A stretch of DNA of 64,000 bases from Crambe crambe. Taxonomy: Eukaryota; Porifera; Demospongiae; Poecilosclerida; Crambeidae. This document shows positions 19,526-55,080 of the stretch, piece by piece. A program made the position numbers and the translations under genes. Position 1 is the stretch's first letter, and each line of letters begins with the position of its first letter. The notes beneath the pieces were generated by a model, which was not told the origin of the DNA, did not search any database, and was given only the letters and a program-made list of their open reading frames with translations. The DNA is taken from NCBI GenBank assembly GCA_963924555.1, contig OZ004588.1, forward strand, positions 6,607,205-6,671,204, written 5' to 3'.

Positions 19526-20030
19526 CTCTATTATTATTATTATCGCTGTGGCTATACGTCCGGCAGCCGGATACTATTTTCAGAGCTATAGGTCCGGCAG
19601 TGCTGGCACTCTTTAAAGATTGATCCCATTTCCATCCTTCTTGTTTCCTTACTTTTTTGATCCCTACATCTTTTTTTTCATTTCACAAAATGCTTTTTCC
19701 CTTATACTAATCTCAACCCCAAGGCCACAGTGTATATACGTATAGTATTGCATCTTTAATATCGGGTCCTCTCTTTGGGATTTCTTCATGCATCTAGAGG
19801 TGACATGCTGCATAACTAGAGTGAGTAAATAGGTCTGTCTGATTCCACTGCAGCTATCAATTATTATAGCTAGTTATAAATAGCACTCTTGACTTTTGGA
19901 ATAATTTACAAGTAATAATGACAACACAGAATAATGCGTTATGTGATTATTATGATGCAGTTGGTTCCACACTAGCTATATAGTGTTAAAATCTATGCAA
20001 CCTTGAGTGTCTTTTATTGATGCACACCTA

Positions 20031-20699
20031 TCACTTTCTGCCACCATAGAGTGACCTGAGTAGCGAACGAAACTGCTCATCAGCTTCCTCTCCCTTGCCA
20101 TCACTTGGAATCTGGTCAACTTGTTCAGCATTGGCCGGTGATTCACGGAAACCCTTTAACAGATCCAGGAGATTCTCTACTTCTGCTTTCTTGAATGGAA
20201 AACTCAAAGGACTCTCAGCCTGTGCTTTCTTCAACGGACGAGAGTAACCAATATTCCAACCTTCAGCCTCTGCTTTCTTCAACGGACGAGAGTAACCAAT
20301 ATTCCAACCTTCAGCCTCTGCTTTCTTCAACGGACGAGAGTAACCAATATTCCAACCTTCAGCCTCTGCTTTCTTCAACGGACGAGAGTATACAATATTC
20401 CAACCTTCAGCCTCTGCTTTCTTGAATGGAAAAAACCTCTCTTCTTCTGCTTTCTTGAATGGAAGAAACCTCTCTTCTTCCGCTTTCTTGAATGCTGCTT
20501 TCTTGAATGGAAAAAACCTCTCTTCTTCTGCATTTTTGAATGGTAAACTCAAAGGACTTCCAGCCTGTACTTTCTCCTTTGCAAGTGGATGGGTGTAGCC
20601 AAAAGTAAGTCCATTGCTCGAGGCCTTTTTCTGCGCTGCTGGAGCAGAGTGGCCCACGATGAAGAATGATGCTATAAGAAAAAGAGCAAGCCCTTGCAT
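20031..20699 (-). CDS. Secreted multi-copy peptide precursor (KK sites, AEAE/AEEER spacers)
   Basis: A single open frame of 222 residues. A signal peptide (residues 1 to about 18, ending VGHS) is followed by serial peptide units separated by dibasic KK. Residues 99-156 hold four 16-residue units: GWNIVYSRPL once, then GWNIGYSRPL three times, each followed by KK and all but the last by AEAE. Residues 61-93 hold RFFPF, RFLPF and RFFPF units with AEEE spacers. Related single copies are GLTFGYTHPL (30-39), SPLSLPF and SPLSFPF. The C-terminal part is acidic and ends SLYGGRK, where G-R-K could act as an amidation signal. The layout is that of neuropeptide or pheromone precursors cut by prohormone convertases. 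A repetitive structural or adhesive secretion is the main alternative. I do not recognise a named family. The start is the only Met ahead of the signal peptide. Confidence 0.8.
   Translation of the reverse strand: MQGLALFLIASFFIVGHSAPAAQKKASSNGLTFGYTHPLAKEKVQAGSPLSLPFKNAEEERFFPFKKAAFKKAEEERFLPFKKAEEERFFPFKKAEAEGWNIVYSRPLKKAEAEGWNIGYSRPLKKAEAEGWNIGYSRPLKKAEAEGWNIGYSRPLKKAQAESPLSFPFKKAEVENLLDLLKGFRESPANAEQVDQIPSDGKGEEADEQFRSLLRSLYGGRK
20220..20425. repeat. 48-bp coding tandem repeat
   Basis: Four nearly identical 48-bp units (TTTCTTCAACGGACGAGAG on the plus strand marks each) encode the four GWNI-type peptide copies. Their near-identity points to recent expansion or homogenisation by unequal exchange. 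Confidence 0.9.
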
Positions 20700-20832
20700 C
20701 TTGAATCGTAATGAGTGGAGTGTGGATGTGAGAAAGCTACAGGCAGAGGAGGGGTGTAGTTATAGCTGCTGATGAAATGTCGTTGCTAACCTTCTTCTTG
20801 GGAAGTAGCTAGCTATATAGAGCAGCTTGCTG

Positions 20833-20840
20833 CATTTATA
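20833..20840 (-). promoter_or_regulatory. Candidate TATA box of the peptide precursor gene
   Basis: TATAAATG on the minus strand, about 135 bp upstream of the ATG. A second candidate, CTATATAG, lies nearer at about 20815-20822. Confidence 0.35.
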
Positions 20841-20844
20841 GGGA

Positions 20845-28027: not shown

Positions 28028-28417
28028 TTAGTAGTAGGCCCAGTGACAGCGTGTCAAGGGATGGTAGTGTTTGTAGCTGGTGATGCATACGCGAAGGTGG
28101 TTTCTGTAATAGTGATGCAGATAATAATACTGGCTCTTGGCTTTTTTCCCACCATCTTCATCTCCTGAAATGAGTGCGCCTCCATCTTCATCTTCTTTCT
28201 CTTGCAGTTGGGCCAGGATATGTTGTAGCCTTGCATCAGGGTCCTCCCCATCTCCTCCCTCGGCTGCCAGTGCTGCTTTGCCTTCATCGGCTTGCTGGAT
28301 TTCATTCATTATCCGCCCCATTTCAGCTGCAGAGAGCTTACTCTTTCGATCTTGTCCAGGCATGCTGAGAGCAACAGAAAGAGTTGCTGCAAAAAGCAGA
28401 GCAATGAGATACTTCAT
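28028..28417 (-). CDS. Secreted His/Tyr-rich peptide precursor (type C, copy 1)
   Basis: 129 residues in one exon. A signal peptide (MKYLIALLFAATLSVALS) is followed by a charged pro-region (MPGQDRKSK, then a Glu/Asp-rich helix to about residue 90, KEDEDGGALISGDEDGG). Lys-Lys then leads to a tail of about 37 residues starting SQYYYLHHYY, very rich in His and Tyr, with two cysteines (VCITSY, TRCHW) spaced to form one loop. An acidic pro-part before a cationic or metal-binding tail is typical of antimicrobial-peptide precursors. The tail recalls histatins only in composition. The paralog at 39496 is inverted and differs at few positions. Function is unproven. Confidence 0.75.
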   Translation of the reverse strand: MKYLIALLFAATLSVALSMPGQDRKSKLSAAEMGRIMNEIQQADEGKAALAAEGGDGEDPDARLQHILAQLQEKEDEDGGALISGDEDGGKKAKSQYYYLHHYYRNHLRVCITSYKHYHPLTRCHWAYY

Positions 28418-28522
28418 CGTTTACTTGTTGCTGAGAAGTAAGAGGCTTTTAGTGATCTCAATCGATATAATTATGGTCGCTATTATATGGTGTTCAGTGA
28501 CTAAATAGTTGTCTCTCAGCTG

Positions 28523-29889: not shown

Positions 29890-29936
29890 ACCCATGTATT
29901 ATGCATTCAGTGGCAGGGAATAAAAGCTAGCAACAC
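29890..29936 (+). promoter_or_regulatory. Conserved type A promoter block, copy 1
   Basis: CCCATGTATTATGCATTCA, then GTGGCAGGGAATAAAAG and GCAACAC. AATAAAAG (29919-29926) lies 74 bp before the ATG and is the likely TATA-like element. Near-identical blocks precede the genes at 32227 and 34881. Confidence 0.6.
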
Positions 29937-29992
29937 AGAATTTCCACACTAATTGCTCATGGTTTGATAGGAAGCTTCAAAGAGCAGTGACG

Positions 29993-30328
29993 ATGAAGTG
30001 TTTGTCTATTTTTCTCTTTCTTGGGATCATTCTGACTATTGTTGTTGCCTTTCCATCAAAGCGTACAGAGGAATTGTCAAACAGAGATGACATTGAGGCA
30101 GAGTTAAAAGAGAATGCCAGATCTTCAGATGCAATGCATGCATCCGAGTCTGATGAATATGAAGACGACATTGAAGAAGTTTTAGCTCAAGATGAAGATG
30201 GGGATGATGAAGTTGCTACTCTTGCATTAATAAGGTCCACACGCTGTTACTGGCATTTTTGCAGTTTCAGGCTTTCTGGATTAAGCTGTCGCAAAGTGAG
30301 AAAACTAAGCTGCAGACCTTGGTTTTAG
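29993..30328 (+). CDS. Secreted acidic-pro/cationic-tail peptide precursor (type A1)
   Basis: The start is the ATG at 29993, since the frame upstream has only a non-ATG codon. 111 residues: signal peptide MKCLSIFLFLGIILTIVVA, then a pro-region dense in Glu and Asp (DEYEDDIEEVLAQDEDGDDE), then a basic tail from about residue 80 with four cysteines spaced C-x4-C-x8-C-x7-C and ending CRPWF. The tail shares C-x-F-x6-C with A2, A3 and B. The architecture matches antimicrobial-peptide precursors such as Hydra arminins or periculins in layout, not in sequence. An antimicrobial or defence role is inference. Confidence 0.75.
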   Translation: MKCLSIFLFLGIILTIVVAFPSKRTEELSNRDDIEAELKENARSSDAMHASESDEYEDDIEEVLAQDEDGDDEVATLALIRSTRCYWHFCSFRLSGLSCRKVRKLSCRPWF

Positions 30329-32178: not shown

Positions 32179-32226
32179 GCAGCACTTCCACGCTAACTGC
32201 TCGTGGTTTGATAGGGAGCAGTGACG

Positions 32227-32628
32227 ATGAAGTGTTTGTCTATTTTTCTCTTTCTTGGGCTCATTCTGACTATTGCTGTTGCCTCTCCATCAAAGCGTGC
32301 AAAGGAATTGTCAAACATATATATAGATGACATCGAGACAGAGTTAAAAGGGAATGCCAGATCTGCAGATGATGAAGATGATATTGAGACAGAGAAAGAG
32401 AATGCCATATCTGTTGGTGCATCTGAGTCTAATGAAGATGAAGACGACAATGAAGAAGTTTTAGCTCAAGATGAAGATGGGGATGACAAAATTGCCACTC
32501 TTGCACATAATTATTGGTTTAAAAGGCGCATCCGTTGTTTGGTGTATACTTGCAGATTCGGCCATAATTCCTTCACCTGTCGCCGACGACGACGCTGCAG
32601 ACGACGAGGACGCTGGGGCCGGAGGTGA
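32227..32628 (+). CDS. Secreted acidic-pro/cationic-tail peptide precursor (type A2)
   Basis: 133 residues from the ATG at 32227. Signal peptide MKCLSIFLFLGLILTIAVAS, a pro-region longer than in A1 because of an extra Glu/Asp-Glu/Lys segment, and the conserved EEVLAQDEDGDDK block. The tail starts near WFKRRIRC and has four cysteines, C-x4-C-x8-C-x5-C, with an extreme Arg cluster (CRRRRRCRRRGRWGRR). The signal peptide and pro-region are almost identical to A1, while the tail differs strongly. That is the usual pattern of conserved leader and rapidly diversifying mature part in defence peptides. Confidence 0.75.
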   Translation: MKCLSIFLFLGLILTIAVASPSKRAKELSNIYIDDIETELKGNARSADDEDDIETEKENAISVGASESNEDEDDNEEVLAQDEDGDDKIATLAHNYWFKRRIRCLVYTCRFGHNSFTCRRRRRCRRRGRWGRR

Positions 32629-33380: not shown

Positions 33381-33650
33381 CTTAATTTACCTAGCTGTCT
33401 GTGGCACTTTGAAGATAGATGACTGCACGCACGGCAGCAATTGTATACTTTATCAGTAGTCGCTGACAGGCACATGTTACAGCTTCTTATCATTTGAAAA
33501 CTAACATTGAAAAAATTAATGAAATTGAAAAAAAAAGTTCACTTGAACAGCTATATAACCTGACTCCATCTAGCTAGTTAGAGCAGTTCTGTGTGGCTTC
33601 ATTCAGTCAGCTATACTCGTCTATGCTCAAGAACCTCCACGACACATGCA

Positions 33651-33995
33651 ATGATTCAAAAACATCTTTTTGCCTTCCTTCTTATGGGGATTGTTCTTGC
33701 TACAGCTTTCGGATCTCTGACTAAAGATATGAAGGAAATAGTAAAAGATATCACAACAGAATCGAAAGGGACAACTGGAATGGTTGCCGATTACTCAGAG
33801 CCAAAACTTGAGAATGATATTAAAGATCTCTTATCTCAAGATGCTAAGAGAGCTGGAAAAACAGTTGTAGAGGGCTGCCGCAGGCGGGTTTGTCGCTGGA
33901 TTTTTTCTTCTAATCAATATGTATGTCAATTCAGTCGAGCTTTTGTTAGATGCAATCGTCAACGAGTGCATCGCTGTCACTATCTCAAAGGATGA
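33651..33995 (+). CDS. Secreted cationic Cys-rich peptide precursor (type B)
   Basis: The start is taken at the ATG at 33651, which opens the signal peptide MIQKHLFAFLLMGIVLATAFG. The frame upstream of it lacks signal character. 114 residues in all. A less acidic pro-region with IVKDITTESKGTTG and DIKDLLSQD leads to KRAGKTVVEG and a tail with five cysteines, C-x4-C-x10-C-x8-C-x7-C, rich in Arg. The last three cysteines share C-x-F-x6-C-x7-C with A1 and A3, so type B is a diverged member of the same family. A TATATAA at 33552-33558 may be its TATA box. A defence role is inferred. Confidence 0.75.
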   Translation: MIQKHLFAFLLMGIVLATAFGSLTKDMKEIVKDITTESKGTTGMVADYSEPKLENDIKDLLSQDAKRAGKTVVEGCRRRVCRWIFSSNQYVCQFSRAFVRCNRQRVHRCHYLKG

Positions 33996-34815: not shown

Positions 34816-34880
34816 GTACATAGCACATCCATGCACACTAACTGCTCATCTTTACCTAGGAGTTTTGAAGAGCAGTAACA

Positions 34881-35234
34881 ATGAGGTATCTCTTCACTTT
34901 TCTCATTCTTGGGATCGTTCTGGCTATAGTTATTGCCTCTCCATCAAAGCATGCAAAGGAAATGTCAAATGTGGATGACATTGAGACAGAGGTGAAAGAG
35001 AGTGCCATGTCTGCTGGTGCATCTGAGTCAGATGAAGATGAAGATGACATGGAAGCTCAAGATGAAAATGGGGATGATGGAGTTGCCGCTCTTGCATGGC
35101 GAAGGCCCACCCGTGTTCTACGCTGTTCCTTGGTCTACACCAACAAGCATACCTGTAGCTTCAACCGCACTTACTTCACCTGTCGCCGAATGAAACAGCG
35201 ACGCTGCAGATATATTTACAAGAGAAGAGGGTGA
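34881..35234 (+). CDS. Secreted acidic-pro/cationic-tail peptide precursor (type A3)
   Basis: 117 residues. Signal peptide MRYLFTFLILGIVLAIVIAS, then PSKHAKEMSN and an acidic pro-region (SESDEDEDDMEAQDENGDD). The tail begins near WRRPTRVLRC with four cysteines in C-x9-C-x8-C-x7-C order (SLVYTNKHT, SFNRTYFT, RRMKQRR) and ends YIYKRRG. Its spacing links the A1/A2 forms to type B. Two disulfides are expected. It lies last in the tandem series and is not followed by a type B copy. Confidence 0.75.
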   Translation: MRYLFTFLILGIVLAIVIASPSKHAKEMSNVDDIETEVKESAMSAGASESDEDEDDMEAQDENGDDGVAALAWRRPTRVLRCSLVYTNKHTCSFNRTYFTCRRMKQRRCRYIYKRRG

Positions 35235-39368: not shown

Positions 39369-39495
39369 GAATTCTCAGAAGAGAGATCTACCTTAACTCT
39401 TCTTATCCATCATCTTCATCACTTCTATAGTTCTCTGAAAAATTAAATTGTAATCATTTCTGTATCTTGATCCTATATTCAGCAAAGAACTCCAC

Positions 39496-39894
39496 ATGAT
39501 GAAGTATCTTTGGGTTTTCCTCTTCGTTGGAATCGTTACTCTTTCTGTTGCTCTCAGCATGCCTGGACAAGATCGAAAGAGTAAGCTTTCTGTAGCTAAA
39601 ATGGAGCGGATAATGAATGAAATCAAGCAAGCTGATGAAGATAAAGCAGCATTGGCAGCCGAGGAAGGAGATGGGAAGAACCCTGATGCAAGGCTACAAC
39701 ATATCCTGGCCCAACTGCAAGAGAAAGAAGATGAAGATGGAGGTGCACTCATTTCAGGAGATGAAGATGGCAGGAAAAAAGCCAAGAGCCAGTATTATTA
39801 TTTGCATCACTATTACAAATACCACCTTCACGTATGCATCACCAGTTACTCCCACCACCATCCCTTGACACGCTGTTTCTGGACCTACTACTAA
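39496..39894 (+). CDS. Secreted His/Tyr-rich peptide precursor (type C, copy 2)
   Basis: 132 residues. Signal peptide MMKYLWVFLFVGIVTLSVAL, pro-region MPGQDRKSK, then an acidic helix and EKEDEDGGALISGDEDGRKK. The tail starts SQYYYLHHYY and ends CFWTYY with two cysteines (VCITSY, TRCFW). It differs from the inverted copy at 28028 mainly by conservative changes, and the 3' flank (AAGAAGGGACTGACTCATAA) is shared for about 150 bp. The two genes bracket the A/B tandem series, so an inversion or an inverted duplication built the cluster edges. Antimicrobial or metal-binding activity is inferred from composition only. Confidence 0.75.
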   Translation: MMKYLWVFLFVGIVTLSVALSMPGQDRKSKLSVAKMERIMNEIKQADEDKAALAAEEGDGKNPDARLQHILAQLQEKEDEDGGALISGDEDGRKKAKSQYYYLHHYYKYHLHVCITSYSHHHPLTRCFWTYY

Positions 39895-42575: not shown

Positions 42576-45500
42576 GGTACCTATGATTCTTCCCAATGGA
42601 GGCTGGCAAGATGGGAAGGCACAGAGAAGATCAAGAAAGTTAGTCCTTTCCTCTATAAACAGGGAAGAGTACTCCATAGAACCTGCAGAAATAGCTATGT
42701 AAACTTGTGTGTGCATACCACAATCATAAGACAATTTCTTCCCTTTGTTCTTCTATTATAGCTATACATTTTAAAACTGCTATACATTATAAAGTCTGTG
42801 TTCACTTGATCCGTCGATCATTCATTACCGTATAGTGCGATATTTTCGTGGATAAAATTTTCGTGGATTTCGTGGTTTCGAAAAAATAATACACGAGAAT
42901 AAGGGAATTTATATGGTTCATACAATCATCAATATTTGCAAAATCACGAAAAATTTGACCCACGAAATTTTTTCGCTATAATTATAGCAATACCAAAGTA
43001 TCAAGTGATCACAGCATTGACTTGGTATTATGAAGAGCCAACTCATCTATAATTTTATTGCTTTCATTGCAGCTATATGTAATATTTGTGAGAGACCTTG
43101 TCTACTGGAGAGCTCCTGGAGTCTTCTTTCCTCTTTAGGGTTAGAGCAGAATGATGACAACAAACATAAATGTGCCTATGGCAAAAAAACAACAACAAAA
43201 TAAAACAAACAAACAAAAAAATTACAATGGAGACACATGCACACAATGAAAAACACCCAACCCAATCCTCCAAATAGCTTCATCCAACCCAAATAGCTTT
43301 TTACAAGACTGAAGTCTATTTGCATTCGCCTTCATTCACTATAACTGCTATAACTTTCTAGTTCAATGCATCAACAGAGAGCTGATTATCACTCTCTCTG
43401 CTGGTGTTTAAAATTTGAAATTTGGTTAAGAATTGAGAAAGTTATAGCAGTTATAGTGAATGATCATTAATGAGGGTCTTACCTTCTTTGGAACAGCTCT
43501 GAAGTCAGCACAGTAAGTAAAGAACTGTTTCACTGAGCAGGACTTGGGAATGTGCATAGGAAGAACAGGATCTGCAAACAAGTCATGAAATTTCATAACT
43601 ATAATAATTATGAGAGTTCCAAAACATTTGGCTACTCATAGCATCAGGGGTTAAATTTGGAGTAGATAGTCTGACCATTAATTTTTTATGACAAAAGTTT
43701 TGGAAAATCTGTCTCCCATAGCTCACTCATAATAATAATAATCTTACTTCGTTTAGTTGTTTCTGATAAAATGGAGAGATCCATCATATTATCTTCAACA
43801 AGCTTCAGTCTGTGCATGCATGGGTATGTTATGGAGCAGGAAAGTAAAAAAATAATCATCAACAAAGCAGAGTTTCACGCAAGACACAGAATAATACATT
43901 TATTATAGCTGCACTAGCTACAATGAACTTATCGCTGATCCTTCATTGTATTGTACGTTGATTATGCATTTAAAGGTTCCCCCAAAATTTATACTTTTTC
44001 ATCTTTTATCATGGTATCATCTAATTCCCAATAACTCGATCTCAATTCCCAAGGACAGATGTGCACTGTTTACAAAATCAAGTACTATGTATGTATTATA
44101 AAGCATGATGTTGTCCAAATTTGAAGTCATTATATCCAAATGAAGATGAAAATTGCAGTTTGCACACTACTGATAGCTAATTATCATCAATGATGGATAA
44201 TCAAAAACTATATTAAGTCACTCATCATAATTATCATCCTTTTCTAATTCTTTATCATAACTCTGTTGATTCCCAAGGATACTATTTACCAAAAGTAACA
44301 AAATCAGGTATTATAATACTGTAAAAAGAAGTTGAAGGGACGAATTCAAATGAAGATGAAGGTCGTTGTGTGTCTATTCTTGCATGCTCTGCTGATATCA
44401 TCAAATCATGGATCTTACTGTACAATCAATTCAAGTGAAAACTTGAACGATATCAATTTTCAAACTTGTAATGAAGTATTTTTTGATATTGAGCATCTTG
44501 AAGTCAATAGGACTATCAGTGCTACATCTATTACCGGCAACATTGTATTGAAAGGACATCAAAATCATACCAAGATGTTCTGCTCAACTGGAGCTGGTTT
44601 TAAATTTGATCACATCAACGACTTAAGCATACTCGATGTGGAAGTTATCAACTGTGGCACTTTACATAGCTATGGCTTCGAACAAATTGAGTTCAGAGCT
44701 GCAATCTTTGTGCTTCATAGCAGGAACGTGACTATTCTGAATTCTAGTTTCAGCGAATCAGATGGCTCAGGACTGGTGCTGATTAATAACCACATGGTTC
44801 AAATTGAAGACAGCACCTTCACTGGTGGAATATCCAACACCAAAGCAGCTATTCTTGGAGGAGGAGGGATATTTGCTGCATTAGATTGCAAATCGATACC
44901 AGGGAATCTTACCGGTTACCCTAAAAGATACATTTACTGTGACAATTCAACGCTTCTTATCGATGGCTGCCACTTTATTGACAATCATGTAGAAGAAGTG
45001 CCATTCATCTCCACATTTAGCAGTTTGAGGGGCACTGATAACACAATGACTGGATGGAGAGGAGGAGGAGGTGGAGTCAGTTTTATCATACAAGACTCTT
45101 CAGGAAATCATGTGTCAATCAGAGACTCTATGTTTAGGAACAATTCAGCCGAATATGGTGGAGGTCTAAGAGTTCTCTTTTGCCACCAAGCAAGGAACAA
45201 TAATATAAGTCTACAGCACTCTTGTTTTGATCATAATAAAGGTCACAGAGGGGGTGGTTTTCTTATAGAAATAGTCGGCCTTGATGTAATCCGAAATTCA
45301 ATTGAAGTCAATTTTTTGACATTAATGAACAATGAAGCCCACCATGGTGGTGGCAGTATGCTCTACACGTACCTTTGGTCGATGAAAAAAGAAAATGTCA
45401 TAAAGTTCTCAAATTGCACCTGGGAAGGTAACAGAGCTCATCATGGAGCTGCCTTCTATGTCCAACCACCACTAAGAAATGTCAACATAATACCCCACCT

Positions 45501-48500
45501 GATGTTTGATACCTGCTCATTCAAGTCCAACCAAATAGAGAATGATGATTCCAGCAGTGTCGAAAAAATAGGAGAAGGCATCGTCATGGTGACTGGATAC
45601 AGTCTCATTTTCAAGGGAAACACCACATTTAGTCACAATCGAAACGGTTCATGTCTGCATGCTACTTCAAGTACTGTACACTTCGAGAGTGGTACTCACA
45701 CTCTGTTTTACGACAACACAGCTATAAATGGAGCAGGAATGGCTCTGTATGGTTACTCTTCAATCATTGCAGATGACTTAGCACATGTAACGTTTTGCAA
45801 TAATTCTGTGATGGATAAAGGAGCAGCTCTGTATTATTTTTCTACTGATATTCATTCACACTCTGAAACTTGCTTTATTCAGCGATATAACATCACTTCA
45901 GGGAAAAAAATCATTTATAATTTCTTCGGAAACAAGGCAGACCATGCGTATGATGATGGGGAAAAGACACTGAATGACTCCATTTATACCACCTCTTTAA
46001 TGTCATGTCAATTACAATCAAATGACAGCCAGTACAATGTCAACAATGTAGGAGAGTTTAGATACTATAATACATGCGAGATATGCATGATTCTGAGCCC
46101 AAATCTGACAAACAGCACAGGTAACTGCTCATACGAGTATGATACTCCTGAAATATCAAACGGTGGAGACATAGAATTCAATGAAACAGTTATTCATTTT
46201 GTACCTGGACATAAATTCAAACTAACCATACAGAAAAGCACAGCCTTGTATAGAGTATTACTAAGAAACAATGATGGTAATATTGTTCTCCCAATGGAGT
46301 ATAAAATCATTTCTGAGTATTTATCCTTACGTGGATGCCCTGAGGACACAGGATCGGTGACTCTGTTTGAATATGGTATGCATAGGCATTCAATGTCTTT
46401 TCAGGTGGAAGCTCGACATTGTCCACCCCTTTACAAGATGGAGAATAAATCATGTGTCTGTCATAGCACTGAAGATATCAATTTCGTGGAGTTCCATAAA
46501 TGTGATAACATCGAGCATCAAGCAAGCATTAGACTAGGATACTGGATTGGCATGGTTGAAAATGATACAAGTTCTAAGCGAATGAATGAATGCAAAGAGA
46601 ATCTTTATACTATGCTTACCAGCTACTGTCCGTTTGGATATTGTTCGTTGAAGACAGATAATGATGGTTACATAAAGCTGCCTGACACAAATGACAAAGG
46701 TCGTCTGGACGAAGCCGTATGTAATTCTCGACAGGGAACTCTATGTGGTCAATGCAAAGAGAACACTTCAGTCTACTTTCACAGCGAGTGGCTTAAATGT
46801 GACAAAAACGACTTGTGTTATCTTGGACCTCTATTCTACCTTCTCTCCGAAATCTTACCACTCACTCTGCTCTTTCTTTTCATTATATTTTCCAACATTA
46901 GCTTCACATCTGGAAATTTGAACGGTTTCATATTCTTTGCTCAAGTGTATGACTCAATAACAAATGTGGGTGCTAGTTTCATAGCAAAGGAAGATACCTA
47001 CAGCAAATTCAGCATCATACATCGAGTTGTTTATAAACTCTTCAATTTCGATTTCTTCAACATTGAAAATGAATTCACCTTCTGCCTTTGGAAAACTCCA
47101 TCAACATTGAACATCTTAGTGATCAAATACTTAACTGGAATATACGCTCTGGTGCTCATTCTCAGCACAATTTGGCTCCTTGGATTTTGCAGCAAGTTCA
47201 AATCCATGAAGATACTAAGACGTCAAAAGTATTCAACCATTCACGGCATATCTGCTTTCCTGGTCATGACTTACTCCCAATTGTTGAAAATCTCATTTTT
47301 AATACTCTATCCGATCACAATTCACAGGGCAATAAAAGGACTTGGAGAATATAAAGATGTTGTTTTTGTACAAGGAGACATAGAATACATGAGCAAAGAA
47401 CATCTTCCATATGCTCTTCCAGCAATAGCTTCCATCTCTCTTGCTATCATCCTTCCTCTTTTGCTAATATCCTACCCATTATGCAATAAAGTGACTGCAT
47501 ATTTTGGAATTGAAGGAAACTGCATCATCAAATTCATATCAAAATTAATACCTATAATCAAATTGAAGCCATTTCTTGACAGCTTCCAAGGAACGTTCAA
47601 AGATGAATTCCGTTTCTTCGCTGGTCTCTACTTTGTCTACCGTGCAGCTATTCTCATGTCCAGATTAATTGACGAAGCTATGAACATCTATGTGATAATA
47701 CAGCTTCTCTTGATGACAATCCTGGTTCTACACACAGTCACTTTCCCTTACCAAAAAAAGGTACACAACATTATCGATTTGTTTGTTTTTGCCAACTTAT
47801 CTATCATCAATATTTTGAAGTTGCTGAACTTTTCCTATGCACAAAATGGTAAGAGATCCAAAGATAGTGCTCATGTCATTCACTTGATGCAGTTATTCTT
47901 CATCTATCTTCCCCTTGTTGTCCTGTTCTTCTCCTGCATTCACACACTCTTTTGGAAGCTTAAAATTTCATCGAGACTGAAGAAAATGATGGGACGTGAA
48001 GAAAGGCTTGTTGACAGTGACTACAACGATGATGAACTCCCAATGGAGAGAGGATTCTCATCAGAAAGTTACCGCAAAGTAAACGAAAGACAGCTAAAAA
48101 TATTCAGCTAGCTAATAATTTTTGTCAATTAAAGTTTGTCTGTTTTAGTAAAAGCTAGCTACTAGCCACCTCATTGAGCATTTCTTTCTTTTTGGAGTTA
48201 AAGGTTCATAGTGTAAATATTTATGCATGAACTCCATTATTCATTTACATTATACTAGGGAAAATGCAAAGCATTGTGGCGAGTGCAGCTTTAGCCTATG
48301 ATGTCACCTAATCACAAAGGACGGAACCGGAAAAATGTACATAATATACATAATACAATATACAGCACTCCTCATTCGACCCCACTTCGCTCACAATAAA
48401 AAAGGATTCTAGGAAAGTTCATGAACAAGTGAGCGCTTAATTTCAATAACCACACCCACTTTATCCAAGTACTTAACCCAAAGTCATACCAGTCACTCTG

Positions 48501-53752: not shown

Positions 53753-54870
53753 TCACTTATCACATTTCTCACAATAGTACACATCTGGAACATGTTTTTC
53801 ATGTTTTATAGTTGTGCATTTCATATCAAACCATTGGTTACAACCATCACAACATATCCAAAAAACCCCATCATCTGGATATATAAGACCACACTTTGGA
53901 CAAACTGCTTCATCACTTGAATTATTATCACTCTCAATTTCAAGTTCTCTTTCATCCCTCCTTCTCAATTGTCTCTTAGGTATATACCTGCTTCTCCTTT
54001 GCCTTATGTAACTCTCTTTCACCCTTCTTTCTTCTCCGTTCGTACTCTTGAATCTTCCGTTTTTCTTCCCTTTCTAGCCTTTTTGTTTCTTTTTCCAACT
54101 GCTTTTCTTTCTTTCTCTCTTCTCTTTCCAGCCTTTTCTTTGCCCTTTCTGCCTGATTTTGTTTCCAAAGTTCTTCAACTTCCAATTTTTCAGCCTCCTT
54201 AACCTTTAGTTCTTCTAATACATCCAAGTCTGTGATACAAATTGCTTTATTATTAATTGCTTTCTTTCGTTTCCCAGTTGCTTGCTTTGGTTGAGGTAAA
54301 ATCAGGACCTCACGGAGTATAGCTGAAGAACTAGAGCTGCTCTTAGATCCTTGCTCAGAGGCAGAACTGCTGCAAGCTCTTATGACATCAGACTCAGATA
54401 CACCAGAGCGGGGTTCACTCCTTGCATCAATGGGATGTGTGATTCTTAACCAGGCTTCATATTCAGGATCTTTGAGATCGTAACCTTCTTGAAAACGTTG
54501 TTCAAATAGTTTTTCTTGCTCTGGTGTAAACAGGACACTATCAGCTGTAGCTGCTTCTTCCGATTGCTGATCAGAGGCTCCCTCATTATCCATGAATTTG
54601 TACTGGACGGCTTTGCTGGGAGCTAAATCCCTATCATCAATTGCACCAGAATTTAATGGGAATATACCAGTTTTCCTAAAGCCACCCATGATGTTGTTGG
54701 GAGTAAAAGAATTTGGCCATGCTGTAGCAACTAATGATGCTAACTGGTCATTGGTAATAACACGACCTTTGTTTTTAGAAAGGTAGACACTGCTTGCCTT
54801 TGAAAAGTGTGCCTTAAAAGATTTCAATACTCCCACATCCAGCGGGCACAGGATGTGAGTGGTGTGAACC
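53753..54870 (-). pseudogene. Pogo-type DNA transposase, C-terminal remnant with PHD finger
   Basis: From about 54870 the minus strand reads HTTHILCPLDVGVLKSF, the segment after the last catalytic acidic residue in pogo/Jerky-like DDE transposases. It is followed by NNIMGGFRKTGIFPLN and a long charged coiled-coil region (EREERKKEKQLEKETKRLER). Near 54010 the frame shifts by one base, and the new frame (to 53753) encodes a PHD finger: CPKCGLIYPDDG, WICCDGCNQWFDMKC, YYCEKCDK. The HTH and most of the DDE core are missing. The one-base shift could be a mutation or a sequencing error. As a plain DNA transposon it may be the source family of the pogo MITE at 36507. Confidence 0.75.
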
Positions 54871-55080
54871 CCATATCACTGACTGGTCCCTATAGCAAAA
54901 GCTTTTATTTTGAAAATTGAGGAGGCCCCATATCACTGACTGGTCCTATAGCAAAAGCTTTTATTTTGCTAGGAAGCTTGGGCCCCATATCACTGACTGG
55001 TCCCTATAGCAAAAGCTTTTATTTTGCTAGGAAGCTTGGAAAATCGAGGGCCCCATATCACTGACTGGTCCCTATAGCCC
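54868..55080. repeat. Tandem array, ~50-60 bp unit, four copies
   Basis: CCCCATATCACTGACTGGTC, CCTATAGCAAAAGCTTTTAT and TTTGCTAGGAAGCTTGG repeat four times with variable tails. The array cuts off the transposase remnant at its 5' side. Confidence 0.9.

Follow-up and report, generated by a model that had tools for sequence, protein, structure and literature searches.

A tandemly duplicated family of apparent secreted multi-peptide precursors in the demosponge Crambe crambe

The genome of Crambe crambe, a demosponge of the order Poecilosclerida, carries a tandemly duplicated family of genes for what appear to be secreted multi-peptide precursors, and one member, P1, is apparently a functional copy. 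P1 lies within a stretch of 64,000 nucleotides (the window, C11:6607205-6671204), and contig C11 is given as chromosome 8, of 7.66 Mb, in the genome note for this species (PMC12166358). A first-pass annotation, made from the letters alone, had described a multi-copy peptide precursor from a probable sponge; its observation is real, and the host is indeed a sponge. The account that we favour, with a confidence that stops a little short of even, is that P1 encodes an intercellular peptide signal.

The gene can be read without any intron and its anatomy is complete, with a TATA motif, a signal-like start, ten peptide units and an AATAAA sequence. The frame is the one first described, from ATG to stop on the minus strand. 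Its parts are as follows.

20031..20699, minus strand: precursor gene P1, 222 aa, single exon, open reading frame from ATG to stop; 92% amino acid identity to copy P2, omega 0.55
20830..20842, minus strand: TATA-type motif CCTATAAATGCAG, putative promoter judged from sequence and conservation; its 12-base core is common to seven copies when aligned
20643..20699, minus strand: putative signal peptide MQGLALFLIASFFIVGHSA, a hydrophobic N-terminus common to the family, with very little synonymous change between copies
20583..20612, minus strand: unit GLTFGYTHPL, with spacer ASSN before and AKE after
20538..20558, minus strand: unit SPLSLPF
20505..20519, minus strand: unit RFFPF, copy 1
20457..20471, minus strand: unit RFLPF
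20424..20438, minus strand: unit RFFPF, copy 2
20376..20405, minus strand: unit GWNIVYSRPL
20328..20357, minus strand: unit GWNIGYSRPL, copy 1
20280..20309, minus strand: unit GWNIGYSRPL, copy 2
20232..20261, minus strand: unit GWNIGYSRPL, copy 3
20193..20213, minus strand: unit SPLSFPF
20034..20072, minus strand: C-terminal tail FRSLLRSLYGGRK, with a possible amidation signal at its very end (GGRK in P1 and P2, GKK in P3-P5)
20013..20018, minus strand: AATAAA polyadenylation-type signal, beginning 13 bases past the stop codon

When the window was simulated 100 times with an order-2 Markov model, no ATG-initiated frame exceeded 196 aa, so that P1, at 222 amino acids, is longer than all of them. 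That P1 is coding is supported independently by the open frames of its relatives, by the TATA motif of the seven copies, and by omega values of 0.55 (P1-P2) and 0.32 (P3-P4). The hydrophobic start, which ends in GHSA in P1, is shared across the family; it was judged to be a signal peptide, a feature of neuropeptide precursors, from composition and conservation alone. The protein has no cysteine.

All ten units listed by the first pass are present: GWNI[G/V]YSRPL four times, RFFPF/RFLPF three times, and GLTFGYTHPL, SPLSLPF and SPLSFPF once each. They follow a common grammar, KK-A-x-x-[E/N]-core-P-[L/F/M]-KK, to which P1 and P2 adhere strictly and P3-P5 more loosely. In P1 every unit ends in P-[L/F], and nine of the ten have E or N directly ahead of the core, in the manner of cnidarian and placozoan precursors. 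The units had been described as nearly all bounded by KK, and this is so for eight of ten on the C side and eight of ten on the N side, but the N-side pair sits four residues ahead of the core. The arrangement is less regular in P3-P5, whose units still open with K-A-[S/L]-S-N and close with F-P-[M/L], several then being followed by SKE, AKE or EAE in place of KK. Because several of these units have no dibasic site after them, cutting at KK cannot account for every unit. The picture of KK on both sides holds for the majority of P1 and P2 units, but only in part for the remaining copies. The patterns P-[LFMI]-K-[KN] and KKAxx[EDN] each occur nine times in P1, against a maximum of two each in 20,000 residue shuffles, counts that are inflated by the tandem repetition of a 48 bp unit at the DNA level. 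An amidation glycine, common though not universal in neuropeptide precursors, follows none of the ten units; GGRK or GKK is found solely at the terminus of the complete precursor. Two prolines are found in two units, SPLSFPF and SPLSLPF (two in seven residues), and a single proline in the other eight, so that most P1 units do not have the proline-rich core (two or more) of sponge PRMP precursors. As for the unit consensus proposed across divergent copies, G-x3-(G/V)-Y-(S/T)-x-P-L, it comes close without quite fitting the P3 and P4 units GPWSIGYTHPL and GPWSISYTRPL.

P1 does not stand alone. A search of the sponge's own genome (assembly of 143,139,886 bases in 119 contigs) found seven close copies about 95-105 kb to the right of P1, two of them broken; they form an array in the opposite orientation to P1, from which it is about 95 kb away. 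Ten more distant relatives, with the same type of signal and other cargo, flank the close copies.

C11:6723059: P2, 92% identical to P1
C11:6725131: P3
C11:6726430: P4
C11:6727898: P5
near C11:6729249: P6, broken, signal region lost
C11:6730851: P7, frame changed near its end
C11:6732188: P8, broken
C11 6696106 to 6720930, minus strand: nine relatives
C11:6734077, plus strand: one relative

Amino acid identity of P1 to P3, P4, P5 and P7 is 33-51%. A search of 264,796 bases on both strands found the 12-base TATA core at seven places only, one ahead of each of P1-P5, P7 and P8; these are the seven copies that keep their start codon. Among the minus-strand relatives, the one at C11:6719926 is interrupted as read, and the one at C11:6711362 (594 aa) has many tandem copies of a unit of 15-16 residues, near FTGSTQPTNEMADRMK, that has no KK. 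Pfam gave this latter protein two scores above cut-off with zero passing stretches, and these were treated as repeat artefacts. A distant family member was found at C13:7226892 (E 0.03), weak matches at C19:2387677 (E 0.02) and C18:5417973 (E 0.13), and a partial match at C11:6718282-6718563.

How have these copies evolved? The block coding for the signal is almost unchanged between copies even at silent sites, while the mature parts have dS around 1; between P1 and P3, there is one synonymous change in 14 signal-block sites versus a dS of 1.36 in the remainder. This block could have been kept by gene conversion or by constraint at the DNA level. Over the 50 bases immediately ahead of its ATG, P1 is closer to P3 and P7 (0.90 and 0.92) than to P2 (0.48, ungapped), while the coding sequence is P2-like, and this mismatch in affinity suggests conversion or recombination.

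For whole genes, omega is 0.55 for P1-P2, a weak test alone that rests on 8 synonymous and 17 nonsynonymous changes, 0.32 for P3-P4 and 1.0 for P5-P7; six wider comparisons gave 0.44-0.74. A clearer signal comes from the units A-[S/L]-S-N-G-[F/I]-S-[I/V]-[S/G]-F-P-[M/L], here called SFPM/SFPL, present three times per precursor in P3, P4 and P5 and separated by sequence that is dissimilar by eye. Nine pairs of these units from P3-P5 were compared over 13 codons, those of P7 being listed and left out of the test. The synonymous proportion was 0.30-0.98 versus a nonsynonymous 0.03-0.15, with a one-sided Fisher p <0.02 in eight of the nine pairs and 0.19 in the ninth (counts were rounded and the pairs are not independent). 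As judged from these substitutions, the SFPM/SFPL peptide of P3-P5 is shown to be under purifying selection. Selection on the peptide itself had been proposed from the repeated units, and it is on these diverged SFPM units that the proposal stands. The GWNI copies do not carry it: they are uninformative on selection because they are nearly identical as DNA, and the ten units of P1 and P2 together differ at only three codons.

The searches for relatives elsewhere gave little. Pfam had no match above cut-off for P1, P2, P4 or P5 (P3 and P7 were outside the scan), the best PDB sequence match to P1 had an E of 0.67, and neither comparison revealed homology to a known neuropeptide family. Pattern searches returned 147 matches in prokaryote genomes and 156 in viral contigs, none confirmed, as expected because this is an animal gene. 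No homologue was found outside the C. crambe genome in searches that took in no other sponge genome. Within that genome, cysteine peptidases, the group of the sponge marker silicatein, gave 121 matches. A description of the P1 family was not found in the literature searched, which covered part of the whole, and a prior description is possible.

The window holds other genes as well. Small secreted precursors of an MKCLSIFLFLG type lie at 29924-30325 (+), 32215-32625 (+), 34869-35231 (+) and possibly 33582-33992 (+); they have an acidic middle and a basic tail with several cysteines, defensin-like in look, and match no Pfam family above cut-off. A related pair of small secreted precursors, at 28031-28420 (-) and 39454-39891 (+), has an acidic pro-region and then a Tyr/His-rich tail with two cysteines (YYYLHHYY...C...C). 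A single-frame protein of 1264 codons at 44317-48108 (+) gives a weak match, below cut-off, to a right-handed beta-helix, followed by several membrane spans as seen by eye, and at 53756-54875 (-) a remnant resembling the end of a DDE_1 transposase (weak, below cut-off) adjoins a PHD finger (above cut-off). Rfam found nothing in the window.

What would become of the P1 protein? Its signal-like start would take it into the secretory pathway. A convertase of furin/kexin type would cut after KK, a carboxypeptidase would remove the basic residues, and an aminopeptidase or endopeptidase may trim the A-x-x-[E/N] spacer, on the model of preprohormones in cnidarians and placozoans. This would free many copies of short peptides, non-amidated and with a Pro-[Leu/Phe/Met] end, such as GWNIGYSRPL, RFFPF, SPLSFPF and GFSISFPM, and perhaps a single amidated peptide from the C-terminus. 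These products would most likely be messages between cells or conspecifics, perhaps received by some of the many rhodopsin-type receptors.

Candidate genes for most of these steps are present, in keeping with the multi-copy secreted layout first proposed. The convertase P domain has 7 matches in the genome, and two frames compared with PDB were closest to furin and kexin. M14 carboxypeptidases give 19 exon-level matches, DPPIV_N 4 matches and prolyl oligopeptidase, an enzyme present in many animals, 6 exon matches. Cu2_monooxygen has 32 matches, and at one of these loci an exon has its nearest counterpart in the PHM domain of the amidating enzyme PAM; for PAL, the other half of that enzyme, the match was not significant (E 0.4). 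For receptors, 7tm_1 has 126 matches (best E 5e-37, 3 below cut-off). The receptor-like genes stand in tandem arrays on C10, C1, C12 and C11, many as single open frames. All of these processing and receptor genes are candidates by homology. Against the receptor side, a 2025 paper (PMC12716839) states that orthologues of bilaterian rhodopsins are not detected in sponges.

We regard it as probable that the precursor is processed into short peptides, and, if it is, a signalling role is moderately likely. Supporting the favoured account are the complete gene, the TATA motif and signal common to the family, the selection on the SFPM/SFPL units, a grammar repeated across different cores with flanks like those of cnidarian and placozoan preprohormones, and the enzyme and receptor candidates. 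Counted against it are the P3-P5 units that have no dibasic site behind them, the lack of an amidation glycine on the P1 units, the nearly frozen signal block beside a diverging mature part, the omega of 1.0 for P5-P7, the altered frame near the end of P7 and the non-significant PAL match. Single-cell work (PMC10580291) also describes sponges as lacking the conserved peptidergic/neuronal expression seen in placozoans.

Might the same layout serve another purpose? It could also free linear or head-to-tail cyclised peptides for exocrine defence, or as RiPP-type metabolites, stored or exuded against microbes, competitors or predators in the manner of the sponge proline-rich macrocyclic peptides (PRMPs), and this we hold to be quite possible, if distinctly short of likely. 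Exocrine defence and venom peptides typically keep the signal block nearly fixed as the mature part diverges, and here the conserved signal and divergent mature part are joined to a tandem array. The window also has the several other small secreted precursors with cysteines or basic tails, and two P1 units have two prolines per seven residues. Moreover, the proline-rich macrocyclic peptides of sponges are cut out of ribosomally made precursors, according to PMC11382151, which cites Lin et al. 2024. The frozen signal and diverging cargo, the tandem duplication and the sponge RiPP precursors fit defence nearly as well as they fit a message.

Other features speak against defence. The charge of 16 tested unit forms, some with spacer, spans only -2 to +1 and is neutral or +1 once the spacer is left out, and eight of the ten P1 units have a single proline. 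The C-terminal tail as an amphipathic antimicrobial helix found no support in P2-P5 when the hydrophobic moments of 11 tails were compared with those of shuffles: 0.19 to 0.82 of shuffles reached the P2-P5 values. The short tail of P1 is borderline (0.046), and those at C11:6734077 and 6697447 are near 0.07, but the relative at C11:6720930 does have an amphipathic tail (0.0015 of shuffles). Net positive charge combined with amphipathicity, as in a cationic amphipathic antimicrobial, was not found. A dedicated target would suit both the repetition of identical copies and the purifying selection that acts on units. Given processing, we lean somewhat to a message over defence because the units without spacers are neutral or +1, are identically repeated and, in P3-P5, are under purifying selection.

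Or is the protein perhaps never cut? A repetitive secreted protein used whole, as adhesive, mucus or matrix, would have KK pairs merely as part of a charged repeat. The 48 bp repeat, with a GWNI copy number that varies from 4 in P1 to 6 in P2, would suit such a protein, as would the KK-free repeats of the C11:6711362 relative; however, the cores differ while the basic site, the spacer and the P-[LFM] end stay, P3-P5 retain their SFPM units although the intervening stretches look dissimilar by eye, and P1 is without cysteine, all of which makes this reading improbable. That P1 is a decaying or non-functional duplicate is very improbable: broken copies near C11:6729249 and at C11:6732188, the end of P7, and the distance and opposite orientation of P1 relative to the array would agree with decay, but the TATA motif, frame, tail and AATAAA of P1 are intact, and its omega versus P2, weak test as that is, points the same way.

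Sponges have no neurons. A family of several genes for multi-copy, non-amidated precursors, with unit borders like those of cnidarians and placozoans, offers a concrete candidate, open to test, for how an animal without nerves might communicate by peptides. According to a 2022 study (PMC9004410), no neuropeptides had been found in sponges before phoenixin and nesfatin, and a mass-spectrometry survey aimed mainly at amidated peptides turned up none in Ephydatia fluviatilis, another sponge (PMC9525235). Surveys with that focus would miss the P1 units because these are not amidated. If the peptides are really cut out, the logic of peptide signalling reaches into sponges, with defence chemicals nearly as possible; if they are defensive instead, they would be a new branch of animal-encoded peptide metabolites beyond the proline-rich macrocycles.

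How does this family compare with systems already described? In yeast precursors of the alpha-factor type, processed by Kex2 and Ste13, each copy is preceded by a dibasic cut site and then a Glu/Ala spacer. P1 likewise has dibasic sites and a spacer, but its A-x-x-E register gives no X-Ala dipeptides right after KK, and there is no homology. Closer to home are the sponge PRMP precursors, which Lin et al., in PNAS in 2024, reportedly described as bearing signal peptides, being built of repeated recognition-core units and resembling neuropeptides. As far as the papers citing that work allow the comparison, both are encoded by sponges, secreted and built of repetitive recognition-plus-core units, whereas P1 has one proline in eight of ten units, a KK-bounded grammar and a poecilosclerid host. 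The P1 family is a variant of these already reported repetitive multi-core sponge precursors (Lin et al. 2024) and not a new kind. Sponges also have secreted peptide precursors for phoenixin and nesfatin/NUCB (Yanez-Guerra et al. 2022, PMC9004410); these are conserved across animal phyla, and they have no evident resemblance to the P1 repeats.

The nearest likeness in organisation is to the preprohormones of cnidarians and placozoans, such as those of Antho-RFamide and PRWamide type. In these, as PMC9545775 describes, each peptide has basic residues on its C side and is preceded on its N side by Asn or an acidic residue, and P1 shares with them a signal peptide, many short copies, basic residues after and acidic residues or Asn before. 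It differs in having non-amidated units with Pro-hydrophobic ends, no similarity to known families in Pfam or PDB, and a host without a nervous system. The wider proposition, that a sponge uses classical multi-copy dibasic regulatory-peptide precursors with this unit grammar, the logic either predating the split of sponges from those animals or having arisen twice, seems to us rather unlikely. The match, one of logic, is close.
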